Shown: positions 3,864 to 56,843 of the stretch, in pieces
Numbering within the stretch: position 1 is the first letter of the stretch
Layout: every line of letters begins with the position of its first letter
Assembly (NCBI GenBank): GCA_018333655.1
Contig: JAGXTJ010000023.1
Coordinates: forward strand, 124,001 to 188,000
Direction: 5' to 3'
Source of the DNA: Bacillota bacterium
GTDB lineage: Bacteria > Bacillota > UBA994
DNA length: 64,000 nucleotides
Notes under the pieces: model-generated
The model's input: only the letters and a program-made list of their open reading frames with translations
Told to the model about the DNA's origin: nothing
Databases searched by the model: none
Translations under genes and position numbers: made by a program

Positions 3864-4847
3864 ATGAGGGAAGTTCTTAGTCAAGCCGAGATAGATAGTC
3901 TCTTAAAGAGTTTGGAACAGGGTGAAGTTGAAGCCCTTGAAGTTCCCAAGGAACAAATCAAGGTGCGTAAGTACGATTTTCGCCGACCCAATCGCTTTTC
4001 CAAGAACAACCTGCGCAATTTGTCGCAAATTCATGACAACTTTGCCCGGCAGTTAGCAAACTTTCTGACTGCCTACTTGCGCACTCCTGTGCAGGCCAAG
4101 GTAGCTACCGTGGACCAAGTGGCTTTTGAGGACTTTATGGTCTCTTTGCCCAGCAATACCGTGGCTACGGTGTTTTCCATGCAAGAACCAGGCCTAGCAT
4201 TGTTTGACGCCGGCACAGACCTTATTGTGCCCATGATTGACCTTGTTTGCGGGGGCGCTGGCGACCCCCTGCGCAAGTCGCGCCTCTTGACCGAAATTGA
4301 GCTGGCGATTTATCGGCGAGTGTGCATGCATATTTTGGAGCGCTATCAGTCGGTGTGGGTAGATTTTGCTACTCTCGACTGCAGTATACAGAGTGTGGAG
4401 ACTAACCCCCGCCTCATCCAGAGTATCGGTCTCGGCGAAATGGTGGCGATTGTTGCGCTTACAGTTACGGTTAACCGCAGCCAAGGAATTATGACCCTTT
4501 GTTTGCCATTTCTCGCGCTCGAGTCCATCTTAAACAAGAAGGGGGACGCCATCTCGGCTAGCGACGGCCCCTCCCTCAGTCAACAATGGTCCGCCCGCCA
4601 ACAGATTCTCAGTGGCGCAGTCCTCGACTTGACGGTCATGCTCGGTGCGAGCGAATTAACGGTGAGAGAGTTTCTCCATCTAAATGCGGGTGATGTCTTT
4701 ACCGTCAACACTAAGCCGGGTGGTTTCGTGGAGTTAAGTGTAGAAAACAACAAGGCTTTTCTGGCCCAGCCGGGCCTGGTCGGGCGGCAAATGGCGGTGC
4801 AAGTAGTGGCGGCACTGGCAGAAGGGAATGATGGGTTTGAGCAATAG
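3864..4847 (+). CDS. fliM: Flagellar motor switch protein FliM
   Basis: C-ring component that binds CheY-P and transmits the switching signal. The N-terminal peptide VLSQAEIDSLLKSL (residues 3-16) is the conserved CheY-P binding segment, the middle is the CheC-like domain, and the C-terminal SpoA domain covers about residues 245-320. 327 aa. Start ATG 3864; the 3' end overlaps fliY by about 20 bases, consistent with coupled synthesis of the two switch proteins. Confidence 0.94.
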   Translation: MREVLSQAEIDSLLKSLEQGEVEALEVPKEQIKVRKYDFRRPNRFSKNNLRNLSQIHDNFARQLANFLTAYLRTPVQAKVATVDQVAFEDFMVSLPSNTVATVFSMQEPGLALFDAGTDLIVPMIDLVCGGAGDPLRKSRLLTEIELAIYRRVCMHILERYQSVWVDFATLDCSIQSVETNPRLIQSIGLGEMVAIVALTVTVNRSQGIMTLCLPFLALESILNKKGDAISASDGPSLSQQWSARQQILSGAVLDLTVMLGASELTVREFLHLNAGDVFTVNTKPGGFVELSVENNKAFLAQPGLVGRQMAVQVVAALAEGNDGFEQ

Positions 4848-5907
4848 ATACTTGTCTCAGGCAGAAATTGATGCCATCCTGCACATGGGGGTTGCCAACG
4901 AGGCACCTGCTTTAAGCGCCATGGAAGCTGATGCCCTCGGTGAAGTGGGGAACATTTCGATGGGCACCGCCGCCACCACGCTTTCCCAGTTGCTGGGCCA
5001 GCGCGTCAGTATCACTACCCCGCGTGTCAGCGTCTCGACTCTAGAGGGTTTGTACGCTCAGTTCACCGTGCCTTATATGGCAATTTCGGTGGACTATATT
5101 CAAGGGCTGTCGGGCTTTAGCCTTTTAGTAATTCGTAACACCGACGCCGCCATTATAGCCGACTTAATGATGGGTGGTAGTGGTAGGCCTGAGACAAATG
5201 AATTAGACGAGATTAAGGTGAGCGCTGTTTCCGAGGTCATGAACCAGATGATCGGCACTGCCGCCACCTCTATGCATTCTTTGTTTGGTAAAAAAGTAAA
5301 TATCTCGCCTCCCCAGGTGATCTTGTTTGACCAGCCGCCCAACCCCGAGGCGCAAAGGGAACTACAGGGAGAAACTTTAGTGGTCGTCACCTTTAAGATG
5401 GTGATTGGCGCCTTGATCGACAGCGAATTGCTGCAGGTGATGCCCATGCGTAGCGCGCAGCAGATGGTTGAATACCTTATGGGTGGGCAGACCCCTGCGG
5501 CAGCTCCCCAAGCGGCAGCCGCAGCGCCACTGCCTGCCGTGACAGAGCCCCCCGCCGCACAACTCGCTGCCCAAGAAGCTCCGCTCGTACAGCGGGCGCA
5601 GTTTTCACCATTGCCGCCCGCGCCAAGCTCTATTCCTGGGGCTAGCATTGATCTGATCCTAGATGTGCCTCTCCAGGTGTCGGTGGTCTTAGGTCGCAGC
5701 CGCAAAACGATTAAAGACGTCATCACGATGGGCATAGGCAGTGTCGTGGAACTTGATCGCATGGTGGAGGACCCGGTAGATATATTAGTAAACGGTACTC
5801 TCATTGCCAAGGGTGAAATTGTGGTCGTGAACGAAAACTTCGGGGTGAGACTGACCAGTATTCTTAGTCAGACGGAGCGCTTAAAAGAGCTCGCCAAGGG
5901 GAAGTAA
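4828..5907 (+). CDS. fliY: Flagellar motor switch phosphatase FliY
   Basis: FliN-type switch protein with an added CheY-P phosphatase domain, as in Bacillus. Domains in order: a CheY-binding N-terminal peptide (YLSQAEIDAILHM), a CheC-like phosphatase domain with LGEVGNISMGTAATTLSQLL and VSEVMNQMIGTAATSM motifs (about residues 30-210), an Ala/Pro/Gln-rich linker (about 215-275), and a C-terminal SpoA/FliN domain (about 280-355). 359 aa. Last gene of the flagellar block in this window; it is followed by a GC-rich palindrome at 5923-5934, but no clear U-tract terminator. Confidence 0.93.
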   Translation: MMGLSNRYLSQAEIDAILHMGVANEAPALSAMEADALGEVGNISMGTAATTLSQLLGQRVSITTPRVSVSTLEGLYAQFTVPYMAISVDYIQGLSGFSLLVIRNTDAAIIADLMMGGSGRPETNELDEIKVSAVSEVMNQMIGTAATSMHSLFGKKVNISPPQVILFDQPPNPEAQRELQGETLVVVTFKMVIGALIDSELLQVMPMRSAQQMVEYLMGGQTPAAAPQAAAAAPLPAVTEPPAAQLAAQEAPLVQRAQFSPLPPAPSSIPGASIDLILDVPLQVSVVLGRSRKTIKDVITMGIGSVVELDRMVEDPVDILVNGTLIAKGEIVVVNENFGVRLTSILSQTERLKELAKGK

Positions 5908-5922
5908 ACGGGGAGTAGTCTG

Positions 5923-5934
5923 ACCCGCGCGGGT
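5923..5934. repeat. GC-rich perfect palindrome after the flagellar operon
   Basis: The 12-base sequence ACCCGCGCGGGT is its own reverse complement, and the flanks (CTG...CAG) add weak symmetry. It lies 16 bases after the fliY stop. No run of T follows, so it is not a clear terminator; it could be an operator or a 3'-end stabilising stem. Function not assigned. Confidence 0.4.
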
Positions 5935-5980
5935 GACCAGAGAAGCTTGTTTCCATAATATACTGGGAGTCTTCTGACAG

Positions 5981-6030
5981 GTACAGCGAACACCTCCACG
6001 AATTTAACTAGTGGAGGTGTTGTATTGTAC
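5981..6030 (+). promoter_or_regulatory. Hairpin enclosing the ribosome-binding site and start codon of the NlpC/P60 gene
   Basis: AACACCTCCAC (5989-5999) pairs perfectly with GTGGAGGTGTT (6011-6021), an 11-bp stem with an 11-base loop. The right arm contains the Shine-Dalgarno GGAGGTG. An outer 5-bp stem, GTACA (5981-5985) with TGTAC (6026-6030), also covers the TTG start at 6025. The structure should block translation unless opened, so a translational switch is inferred. There is no T run, which argues against a terminator. Confidence 0.6.
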
Positions 6031-6852
6031 AAAAAACTACTTGTCGCAGTCGTCCTGTTGTCCCTCTTGACCACGCTGTTTCCCTTGGGTGCAGCGAGCG
6101 AGGCTCCTTTAGGAGCTCGCGCCGCCGAAATCGCGAGAGAAGAAGTGGGTTCCCCCTTTGTAAGGGGCGGAGAAACGCCGCGAGGTTTTGATGCTTCCGG
6201 GCTTGTCTACTATGTCTTTGGACAACTCGGCGTCGAGGTGCCGCGGACAGTGGCCGAACAACATTTGTTTGGCGAAGGGGTTAGGCGGAGCGACCTTAGC
6301 CCGGGAGACATTGTACTTTTTGCCCATGAGGAGGCGCGCTTTACGGGCATCTTTGTGGGTGGGACTACGGTGGTCTGGGCTAGCAGGAGCCTCGGCCGAG
6401 TGCGGACGGCTAATTTGAACGAGGCAGCCATAAGCCGCATGTTTCGAGGCGCACGACGGGTAACGCCTAGTAGCGAGACTAGTATCGCCGACCTAGTGAT
6501 AGCCACCGCGGAACAGTACTTGGGTGTGCCATACCTTTTTGGCGCGGAAGGGCCGACACGCTTTGATTGTTCTGGCTTCACGCAGTGGGTCTTCGCGGCC
6601 CATGGCATTACTTTGCCGCGTACCTCGCGCAGCCAAGCCCTAGTCGGTCGTGCGGTGTCGCGAAATGACCTCGCCAAGGGCGATTTGTTGATTTTTGTGG
6701 ACACGTGGCGAGAGGGTATCTCACATGTGGGTATCTACATCGGAGAAGGCCGGTTTATTCATACCGTGCCACGAAGTGGAGTTTCTTATGCCAATCTAGG
6801 GCAGAGTTACTGGAGCACGCGCCTCCATAGTGTGCGCCGCGTACTACCCTAG
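6025..6852 (+). CDS. Secreted protein with two NlpC/P60 domains, the first catalytically dead
   Basis: Predicted cell-wall hydrolase exported by an N-terminal signal peptide (residues 1 to about 24, hydrophobic, ending AASEA). The second NlpC/P60 domain (about 155-275) has an intact Cys-His-His set: C182 in FDCSGF, H234 in ISHVGIYIG, H246 in FIHT; this fold cleaves peptidoglycan stem peptides. The first domain (about 30-145) keeps the fold signature GFDASGLVYYVF but has Ala for Cys at 57, Thr near 107 and Trp near 118 instead of the histidines, so it is probably a non-catalytic binding domain. TTG start, chosen because GTGGAGGTG lies 5 bases upstream. Confidence 0.88.
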   Translation: MYKKLLVAVVLLSLLTTLFPLGAASEAPLGARAAEIAREEVGSPFVRGGETPRGFDASGLVYYVFGQLGVEVPRTVAEQHLFGEGVRRSDLSPGDIVLFAHEEARFTGIFVGGTTVVWASRSLGRVRTANLNEAAISRMFRGARRVTPSSETSIADLVIATAEQYLGVPYLFGAEGPTRFDCSGFTQWVFAAHGITLPRTSRSQALVGRAVSRNDLAKGDLLIFVDTWREGISHVGIYIGEGRFIHTVPRSGVSYANLGQSYWSTRLHSVRRVLP

Positions 6853-32678: not shown

Positions 32679-32724
32679 GCGCCACCCACATATACATTAG
32701 AGTATAGAGTGGGGAGGGTTGCCG

Positions 32725-33681
32725 GTGAAAAACAAAGTAACCCTAGTTGTTGTGGTGCTGCTTTGTGCGCTCTTGCTCCAAGCCCTTCGGCCTAGCACAG
32801 CCATTCCTGTGGCCCGGGTAGCCAAAGGAGTGACTTTAGCGGGCATGGAGATTGCGGGCTGGACTGAAATGGAGCTAGAAGCGCACTTAGAGAGCGTTCA
32901 GCCACAGCTTTTTAGCGCGCCAGTTGAGCCAAGTTATGACAAGGTACAGCGCGGGGTCATCCCAGGGCTGGCTGGCCGCGAGCTAGATATCGCCGCCACT
33001 CTAGCGCACTGCCTAGGGGCCTTGCCGCAAACCAGTTGTGACTATGTTTTTCGCCCGGTCCTGCCTAGCGAGCCTTCGCTCGAGCTACCTATTTTTCAGG
33101 GCAACCCAGACAAAAGAAAGATTGCTTTCGTCATCAATGTAGCCTGGGGAAATGAAGAACTGAGCGAAATTCTCGATATTTTGGATTACTACAAGCTGCA
33201 GAAGACATTTTTCTTGGTCGGGCGTTGGGTCAGTAAATACCCTGAATTAGTTAGGGAAGTATATAGGCGTGGACACGAACTAGCAAACCATGCTTACTCT
33301 GACCTGCACTTGTCGCAGCAGAGCAGCGAAAAGATCAAGGACGAAATTTTGCGCACGACGGCAGCCATCGTCGCGGCCGTAGGGCCACTAGAAATTCGCT
33401 TCTTCAGCCCGTCCTACAATGATTTCGACCAGGAAGTCATACAAGCCGCAGCGGCACTCGGGTATCAGACGGTGCTCTGCAGCTTGGACACTGCGGATTG
33501 GATGCGCCAAGGGGCAGACCAAATCGTTCGGCGCATCGTGCCGCGAGCCCACAATGGCGCTATCGTCTTAATGCATCCCGCTAGGGATACCCCGCGCGCA
33601 CTGCGTATCATGATTCCTCTGCTTAAGCAGAAGGGTTTTGCCTTGGTGACCCTAGGTGAGCTGCTTTCGCCTCTACCCTAG
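32725..33681 (+). CDS. ylxY: YlxY-like polysaccharide deacetylase family protein with altered metal site
   Basis: Membrane-anchored or secreted NodB-homology protein (hydrophobic N-terminus, residues 5-20; deacetylase-like domain about 130-315). In the conserved position of Bacillus ylxY, after pnp and before the M16 peptidase. The usual metal-binding Asp-His-His is changed: the first motif reads VINVAWGN (Asn138 where Asp is expected) and the second reads NHAYSD (His189 kept, Asp193 where His is expected). Catalysis is therefore doubtful. GTG 32725, 6 bases after GGGGAGGG, is preferred over TTG 32719. 318 aa. Confidence 0.82.
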   Translation: MKNKVTLVVVVLLCALLLQALRPSTAIPVARVAKGVTLAGMEIAGWTEMELEAHLESVQPQLFSAPVEPSYDKVQRGVIPGLAGRELDIAATLAHCLGALPQTSCDYVFRPVLPSEPSLELPIFQGNPDKRKIAFVINVAWGNEELSEILDILDYYKLQKTFFLVGRWVSKYPELVREVYRRGHELANHAYSDLHLSQQSSEKIKDEILRTTAAIVAAVGPLEIRFFSPSYNDFDQEVIQAAAALGYQTVLCSLDTADWMRQGADQIVRRIVPRAHNGAIVLMHPARDTPRALRIMIPLLKQKGFALVTLGELLSPLP

Positions 33682-36876: not shown

Positions 36877-38079
36877 ATGGGCATTATAGTACAGAAGTTT
36901 GGCGGTACCTCAGTTGCCACAGCAGAGTTGCGGCAGAAAGTTATCCAGAAGGTCGTAGAGGGCAGGGCCCTCTACGACGTCGTCGTGGTGGTATCGGCCA
37001 TGGGTCGCAAGGGGGACCCCTATGCGACAGACACTCTTATCGGCCTGCTGCAGCAAGCAGGTGTCCCCGATAAGCACGATTTAGACATCATGATGGCTTG
37101 TGGTGAACTGATGTCGGCCGCTCTAGTGGCGACTAGCTTGCGACAGGCCAGAATAAAGGCTGTAGCTTTGGCCGGCTGGCAGGCCGGCATTGTTACTGAT
37201 GCGACCTTTGGCGACGCACGCATTATTACGGTCAAAGCTGACTACTTGAGAAGTCTCATTGCCCAGGGTATAGTGCCAGTTGTGGCAGGCTTTCAGGGCG
37301 CTAGTGACAATGGTGATATCACGACGCTCGGCAGGGGTGGTAGTGATACTTCTGCCGCGGCCATAGGCGTGGCCTTAGGCGCGAGTGCCATTGAGATTTA
37401 CACAGATGTCGACGGCATAATGACGGCCGACCCACGTGTGGTGCGTGACGCGCGCGTCATCAACACCCTAGACTACTCTGAGGTCTTTAACATGGCCTCG
37501 CAAGGTTCTAAGGTCATTCATCCGCGAGCCGTAGAACTGGCCATGCAGCGCAACATACCCCTCATCATTAAGAGCACGCTGAGTGAGGCGGCGGGTACGG
37601 TCATTGCTAACAACGTTCTCTTTGAAAGAAAGATTGGCAGAGCGGTAACTGCAGTCGCGCATTTGCCCGGGGTATCACAGGTGACTATCACGACTCCGAG
37701 CGATGATAGTACCTTGGAATATGAGATCTTTCGACGTTTAGCTCTAGCGGTGGTCAGTGTGGACTTAATAAACGTGAGCCCCGCGGAAAAGAAATTCATC
37801 GTGCAGTCCGAGGCCGTGGAGAAGGTGCAAGACGCCTTGCGCGATCTACCTGTGGTAGTTAACCATAGAGCGGGTTGCGCTAAGGTGAGCGTCATCGGTA
37901 CAGGTATGCGCGGCATACCTGGGGTCATGGCCAAGGTGGTAGCCGCCATGCGCGAAGCTGCGGTGCGCATTTTGCAAACGAGCGACTCCTACTTGACTAT
38001 CTCCGTTCTTATCGACGAGAAGGACATGGAAAGAGCTGTGCAGGCTTTGCATCACCAATTTGAACTTAACATCGAGTAG
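36877..38079 (+). CDS. dapG: Aspartokinase (DapG/LysC type)
   Basis: First step of lysine/diaminopimelate synthesis. Kinase domain starts IVQKFGGTSVATAELRQK; the catalytic GRGGSDTSAAAIGVALGA lies near residue 155; two ACT regulatory modules occupy about 260-400. 400 aa from ATG 36877, 5 bases after TTGGAGG; the TTG in that SD is rejected. It sits next to dapA and the dipicolinate genes, so the operon supplies precursor for both cell wall and spore. Confidence 0.94.
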   Translation: MGIIVQKFGGTSVATAELRQKVIQKVVEGRALYDVVVVVSAMGRKGDPYATDTLIGLLQQAGVPDKHDLDIMMACGELMSAALVATSLRQARIKAVALAGWQAGIVTDATFGDARIITVKADYLRSLIAQGIVPVVAGFQGASDNGDITTLGRGGSDTSAAAIGVALGASAIEIYTDVDGIMTADPRVVRDARVINTLDYSEVFNMASQGSKVIHPRAVELAMQRNIPLIIKSTLSEAAGTVIANNVLFERKIGRAVTAVAHLPGVSQVTITTPSDDSTLEYEIFRRLALAVVSVDLINVSPAEKKFIVQSEAVEKVQDALRDLPVVVNHRAGCAKVSVIGTGMRGIPGVMAKVVAAMREAAVRILQTSDSYLTISVLIDEKDMERAVQALHHQFELNIE

Positions 38080-56807: not shown

Positions 56808-56843
56808 AGTAGAACGACAAAATATTTTGTCGTTCTACTTTTT
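56808..56843 (+). terminator. Strong terminator after the dipeptidase gene
   Basis: A 32-base perfect palindrome (56808-56839): AGTAGAACGACAAAAT and its complement, so a stem of 13 bp or more around a small A/T loop, followed by five T. Confidence 0.9.

Follow-up and report, generated by a model that had tools for sequence, protein, structure and literature searches.

A hairpin over the Shine-Dalgarno sequence of a secreted NlpC/P60 protein gene as a probable read-through translation lock in a family of uncultured Bacillota

We analysed a 64,000-nt stretch of DNA (the window) from contig JAGXTJ010000023.1 of a Bacillota bacterium of the GTDB lineage UBA994 (genome G000). Near its start lies a gene for a secreted protein with two NlpC/P60 domains, nlpC. 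Upstream on the same strand are frames resembling flgF/flgG, cheD, cheR, cheC, cheY, fliM and fliY, while dprA and topA follow downstream. Pfam was run on fliY, nlpC and dprA only, and the other neighbours were named by sight. The nlpC start codon is separated from the end of fliY by 117 nt, and no terminator-like site was called between fliY and the nlpC start in G000. In a relative, G007, a terminator-like hairpin is visible by eye after fliY, so read-through is less likely in that genome. The N-terminus of the nlpC product resembles a signal peptide by eye. The N-terminal NlpC/P60 domain carries FDASG in place of FDCSG in all four intact orthologs, and is a conserved domain without the catalytic cysteine; the best NCBIfam match over this part is the inactive RipD family, below the cut-off. 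Elsewhere in the window, long perfect inverted repeats are found at 36952-36978 and 56808-56839, with stems of 12 and 14 bp and loops of 3 and 4 nt. The features of the locus are collected in Table 1.

Table 1 Features of the nlpC locus and of a second closed leader, in window coordinates.
Feature	Position	Strand	Remarks
fliY-like gene (CheC and FliN C-terminal domains)	4828-5907	+	Co-directional, just upstream of nlpC; supposed source of read-through
-35-like box, sigma-H type, ACAGGTACA	5977-5985	+	Core AGG invariant in 6/6 leaders; full match weak in G000
Outer stem over the TTG, GTACA 5981-5985 / TGTAC 6026-6030	5981-6030	+	Probably incidental
Left arm of the putative lock (anti-SD), AACACCTCCAC	5989-5999	+	In the promoter spacer and first bases of the -10-like box
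-10-like box, sigma-H type, CACGAATTT	5997-6005	+	GAAT in the loop; core GAA invariant in 6/6 leaders; PWM
Loop, 11 nt	6000-6010	+
Predicted transcription start zone of the local promoter	6008-6013	+	Inferred from the usual distance to the -10
Right arm of the putative lock, GTGGAGGTGTT	6011-6021	+	Holds the SD
Shine-Dalgarno sequence, GGAGG	6013-6017	+
nlpC, 275-aa secreted protein, two NlpC/P60 domains	6025-6852	+	TTG start at 6025; first domain Ala57 for catalytic Cys; second Cys182, His234, His246
Leader of YlxY/PdaB-like polysaccharide deacetylase gene (start 32725), second closed SD in the window	32682-32727	+	CATATACAT in the loop

The initial annotation of this DNA had described an 11-bp perfect stem that buries the Shine-Dalgarno sequence (SD) of nlpC. 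The two arms indeed form 11 perfect Watson-Crick pairs, and RNA structure prediction keeps the SD closed with an opening cost of 15.6 kcal/mol. When the upstream part of the leader was shuffled, none of 2000 mononucleotide or 500 dinucleotide shuffles reached this cost, which upholds the earlier claim that such an arm is unlikely by chance. In a simple stem scan, only 2 of 302 called genes, nlpC among them, fell into the longest class of perfect stems over the SD. By opening cost, nlpC ranked second of the 548 entries in a list of G000 genes, in which the genes of one 20-kb stretch (L124), present in both source lists, are counted twice. The shuffles, the rank and the cross-gene control described below give good support to the proposal that a non-accidental anti-SD arm would block translation. 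The genome has a single copy of the exact arm pattern, and a repeat element was rejected on this ground. A search of the eight genomes of the family with a simple anti-SD dyad pattern gave no clear excess (23 forward sites against 16 for the reversed control), and a stricter whole-leader pattern gave 0 sites.

The predicted closure depends on the left arm. For G000 the predicted opening cost is 18.4 kcal/mol with an 85-nt leader and 1.7 kcal/mol with a short one. Without the left arm, opening of the SD is predicted to cost 0.8-1.7 kcal/mol across the four intact orthologs, and an RNA beginning at 6008 is predicted to form no lock-like stem over the SD. A second, 5-bp stem had been proposed to bury the TTG start codon. 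This outer stem is present in G000, but its upstream half is altered in G001 and G002 even though TTGTAC persists there as codons (by eye), and we therefore regard it as probably a chance, incidental pairing.

We compared the locus across the eight genomes of the family. nlpC is intact in four of them (G000, G001, G004 and G007). The G002 gene has lost internal parts, the G005 gene has its two ends in different frames with the middle missing, and the G006 gene is without leader, start and signal part, the stop reported by the search falling in the end of fliY. G003 has no nlpC match. Draft assemblies could explain part of this breakage and absence. In G000, G001, G004 and G007, respectively, the SD costs a predicted 15.6, 9.6, 10.3 and 11.3 kcal/mol to open, values reached by 0, 14, 17 and 14 of 2000 shuffles; for G004 the figure falls to only 6.9 in the wider cross-gene control. 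The SD of the broken G002 gene is still closed (9.9 kcal/mol, 10 of 2000 shuffles as high) and that of the broken G005 gene is not (2.6 kcal/mol, 1439 of 2000 shuffles as high).

Compensatory changes in relatives had been put forward as a check on the hairpin. The pairs flanking the SD do change on both sides between relatives, appearing as A-U, G-C or U-A, and the ten pairs tabulated for four leaders contain one mismatch in G007 and one in G001/G002. The arms thus compensate in part, a pattern that is supportive and falls short of formal covariation. The order and the class hold only 8 and 15 genomes, so the covariation at nlpC rests on few sequences. According to these predictions, the SD is kept shut in all four intact orthologs by differing, partly compensating sequences.

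The left arm also coincides with a promoter-like element. The leaders of the four intact genes, together with those of G002 and G005, give a gap-free alignment of 56 columns, 13 of them invariant. Seven of the invariant columns make up CAGG and GAA, the cores of a sigma-H-like element with an 11-nt spacer; the sigma-H consensus is RnAGGAwWW, 11 or 12 nt, RnnGAATww. The chance of all six core columns (AGG and GAA) being invariant was calculated as 5e-5, in a test made post hoc once the pattern had been seen. In each of the six leaders, the best hit of a sigma-H position weight matrix (PWM) falls at this same conserved place. Among 302 control leaders, scores as high were found in 2 for G002, 5 for G001, 58 for G000, 77 for G004, 30 for G005 and 29 for G007; by PWM, the match is strong in G002 and G001 and unremarkable in the other four. 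Sites of the same form precede spoIIAA in four genomes (with GAAC for GAAT in G007), xerD in three and aroH in one, while none was found within 140 nt of aroH in G001. A sigH gene scores above the cut-off in 7 of 8 genomes. The usual distance from a -10 box to the start of transcription was used to place the predicted start zone. Further upstream, ahead of the left arm, a CATAAT-like stretch is fairly conserved by eye; we rejected a SigA, SigE or SigK reading of it, as no conserved -35 is seen by eye.

We propose, with modest confidence, that the nlpC hairpin is most likely a lock against read-through translation. Transcripts that read through from the flagellar/chemotaxis operon would carry both arms and fold, so that the SD would be hidden and the wall hydrolase not made. 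The putative local promoter of sigma-H type would overlap the left arm. With the left arm in the promoter spacer, the -10 in the loop and the start between the arms, local mRNA would lack the left arm; such transcripts would begin near 6010 with the SD exposed. Production of the enzyme would then require activity of the gene's own promoter, most likely in stationary phase or during sporulation. The analysis shows the stem, its persistence among relatives despite sequence change, the conserved promoter-like core and the retention of nlpC together with intact sigG. That read-through occurs, where transcription starts, which sigma factor acts and that translation differs are the parts of this model that we infer. 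A start of transcription downstream of 5999 had been named in the initial annotation as a finding that would speak against the gate. The promoter-like element places the start between the arms, which suggests a bypass of the lock rather than its refutation.

Several observations stand against the lock, among them the unremarkable sigma-H scores in G000, G004, G005 and G007, the terminator-like hairpin after fliY in G007, the SD of the broken G005 gene, which is not closed, and the lower G004 value in the wider control. By sequence, flgB is an early flagellar gene, and it has sigma-H-like sites in the four genomes, so the flagellar operon and the local nlpC promoter may share a sigma factor. 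Nor do such locks show an excess at sigma-H-like sites (4 of 41 against 46 of 859, P 0.19), and we rejected sigma-H as their general partner.

Conserved closure of the SD would also be expected if all nlpC mRNA carried the hairpin and a factor acting in trans, be it a small RNA, a helicase, an RNase or an RNA-binding protein, opened it on a signal. By eye, the conserved CATAAT-like stretch could serve as the -10 of a promoter whose transcripts begin ahead of the left arm. We consider such a gate rather unlikely. The stem is strong: any opener faces a predicted cost of about 10-16 kcal/mol. Rfam gave 0 matches at gathering score in the window, for known riboswitches or Rfam leaders, and 2 chance-level matches at 5850-6150 with E up to 10. 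CsrA might be a candidate opener, as csrA is found in 7 of 8 genomes and a G001 stretch is close to what we take to be the CsrA consensus, but no GGA is kept at one conserved place upstream of the SD in the leaders (by eye), and we rejected a CsrA gate.

It is improbable that the hairpin is a constant damper that lowers nlpC translation at all times. The TTG start is also weak, as damping would have it, and passages of one study report that a weaker hairpin over the ribosome-binding site (RBS) of B. subtilis sigG cuts translation 2-4-fold while a strengthened one nearly blocks it (PMC5942855). However, the predicted 15.6 kcal/mol far exceeds what fine adjustment would need. Still less probable is that the hairpin arose by chance, or that it is a DNA dyad or terminator that plays no part in translation. 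The site directly follows a gene cluster, and operators can be perfect dyads, but the site shows neither a T run nor a terminator call, the sequence shifts among relatives yet still matches the SD, and shuffles rarely reach the opening cost in the intact orthologs (0-17 of 2000). An intrinsic terminator was rejected, as the site does not combine a G+C-rich stem with a T run. The temperature gating suggested in the initial annotation is scarcely credible for this hairpin over an SD, since the SD is predicted to be unpaired with a probability of no more than 0.05 even at 80 °C (with extrapolated energy parameters) and stem strength varies among relatives.

We compared the proposed read-through lock with known systems. 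In B. subtilis, a large hairpin has been proposed to block read-through translation of sigG (spoIIIG), and cannot form from sigG promoter transcripts, according to passages of that work (PMC5942855). The likeness proposed for nlpC is that the RBS hairpin forms only in transcripts from the upstream operon and not in those from the gene's own promoter, and that sigG is a sporulation gene (PMC5942855). Unlike sigG, nlpC encodes a wall hydrolase behind flagellar/chemotaxis genes, with a putative sigma-H-like in place of a sigma-F/G promoter, and has a short 11-bp stem whose left arm lies inside the promoter spacer. The SDs of sigG orthologs in the bacterial family of nlpC are closed too. In phage T4, an RBS hairpin is described as locking the long early transcripts of gene e (lysozyme), while mRNA from late promoters a short way upstream of the gene lacks the 5' arm (passages of PMC3014915). 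Gene e and nlpC both encode a lysis or wall enzyme and would share the same lock geometry (PMC3014915), whereas gene e belongs to a phage with temporal early and late promoters and encodes an unrelated enzyme; we claim no homology. The MraW-dependent stem-loops of B. subtilis cmpA and isp lie at translation starts of sporulation or stationary-phase mRNAs, as that of nlpC probably does (passages of a preprint, PMC13317604). The cmpA stem differs in that it blocks the stretch from RBS to start and the early codons and depends on rRNA methylation, and a promoter switch is not described in those passages (PMC13317604). By analogy, the nlpC geometry would equal the two described cases, sigG and T4 gene e. 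Among the titles, abstract openings and passages covered, these were the cases of the same geometry, and a general form of the read-through lock was not recognised.

We explored closed SDs at other genes in stretches of the four intact genomes, with 555 called genes and 88 orthogroups of at least three members. The minimum opening cost exceeded 5.5 kcal/mol in four of the 88: a small unknown gene (11.0), sigG (11.0), nlpC (6.9) and a gene for a DacF-like S11 peptidase (5.8), the next being 5.0. The small gene (L188:10576-10821) encodes an 82-aa protein with no Pfam or NCBIfam match and has the most consistently closed SD of the 88 orthogroups. It is found in 6 of 8 genomes and is not limited to those with intact sigG; in all six, its leaders share GTTCTA, 16 nt, CATA (by eye). 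Closed SDs were also found at spoIIGA (21.4 kcal/mol in G001, 17.5 in G000), at a YlmC/YmxH gene (18.8 in G000, 6.5 in the likely G007 counterpart) and at a SpoVAC gene (10.0). The YlxY/PdaB-like deacetylase gene in the window (10.9 kcal/mol; likely G001 counterpart 13.6) has a layout like that of nlpC and is separate from the nlpC lock. The SD of an M19 membrane dipeptidase gene starting at window 55806 is closed (10.7 kcal/mol), and that of a flgB-like gene (start L192:4124) is closed in G000 (10.7) and G001 (8.9) and open in G004 (0.6) and G007 (1.5). Closed genes are thus not all developmental, as the M19 dipeptidase, flgB and several others listed show.

Promoter-like -10 elements can be seen by eye between the arms at several of these genes, of the CATATA type at the DacF-like, YlmC/YmxH and deacetylase genes, TATAAT at spoIIGA and GGTGATAAT at sigG in three of four. 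In a sample that included chosen sporulation clusters and counted orthologs separately, a sporulation-type -10 motif precedes 9 of 29 closed and 8 of 502 open genes; one intended control motif, which overlaps the real -10 motif, showed enrichment as well (4 of 29 against 4 of 502). A second sample combined 20 G000 stretches picked without regard to sporulation genes with the earlier stretch L124. It held 5 closed genes among 359, and the sporulation -10 motif was found at 0 of these 5 against 5 of 341 open genes. In G000, 7 of 76 genes were closed in the sporulation-cluster stretches, 5 of 99 in the window together with L125 and L192, and 5 of 359 in the broader sample. The first and the last of these proportions differ (P 0.0015), but the clusters had been picked for holding sigG, the DacF-like gene or spoIVA. 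As the motif enrichment is absent from the second sample, a wider class of locks at developmental genes is suggestive, not established. Two further genes, both named by eye and with their starts on the minus strand, were noted: a PLP-enzyme-like gene (L211:7741; SD closed, 18.1 kcal/mol), among the 5 closed genes of the second sample, carries its anti-SD arm within the spacer of a sigma-H-like site, as in the nlpC layout, and a transporter-like gene (L222:14017; SD closed, 10.2 kcal/mol) has TTGTCGAAA and TATAGT between the arms, the former resembling what we take to be a Spo0A box.

Comparison of gene content across the family bears on the role of nlpC. Four of 8 genomes have a sigG match over the family cut-off; they are exactly the genomes with intact nlpC, and they also contain the DacF-like gene and a full-length match to the SpoIVA ATPase. 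In G002, the tested flagellar/chemotaxis neighbours, dprA and topA have open frames and nlpC is broken. G005 has the same pattern, with fliY cut by the end of the fetched stretch, while G006 was covered in pieces only. Since nlpC tracks intact sigG and is broken where the flagellar neighbours persist, this comparison of four against four genomes of one family points to a role that may be linked to sporulation and not to flagella. Intact sigG has been lost in G002, G003, G005 and G006, and pieces of sporulation genes, sigG or spoIVA for example, remain in G005 and G006. Sporulation therefore seems to be decaying in parallel within the family.

As a tentative extension, which we hold with less confidence than the lock at nlpC itself, this family of uncultured Bacillota may have built anti-SD arms into several classes of developmental promoter: sigma-H-like at nlpC, TATAAT at spoIIGA, sigma-F/G-like at sigG, and CATATA at the DacF-like, YlmC/YmxH and deacetylase genes. 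Promoter position would then double as a key to translation, such that protein is made from a gene's own promoter only and growth-phase read-through stays silent. In the parts of the literature covered, sigG was the sole sporulation read-through hairpin of the nlpC type. Were the layout common, gene-dense genomes would have a general design against read-through, in which developmental genes are insulated at the translational level, and the lock would provide a sequence signature that marks unknown genes, such as nlpC, as developmental.
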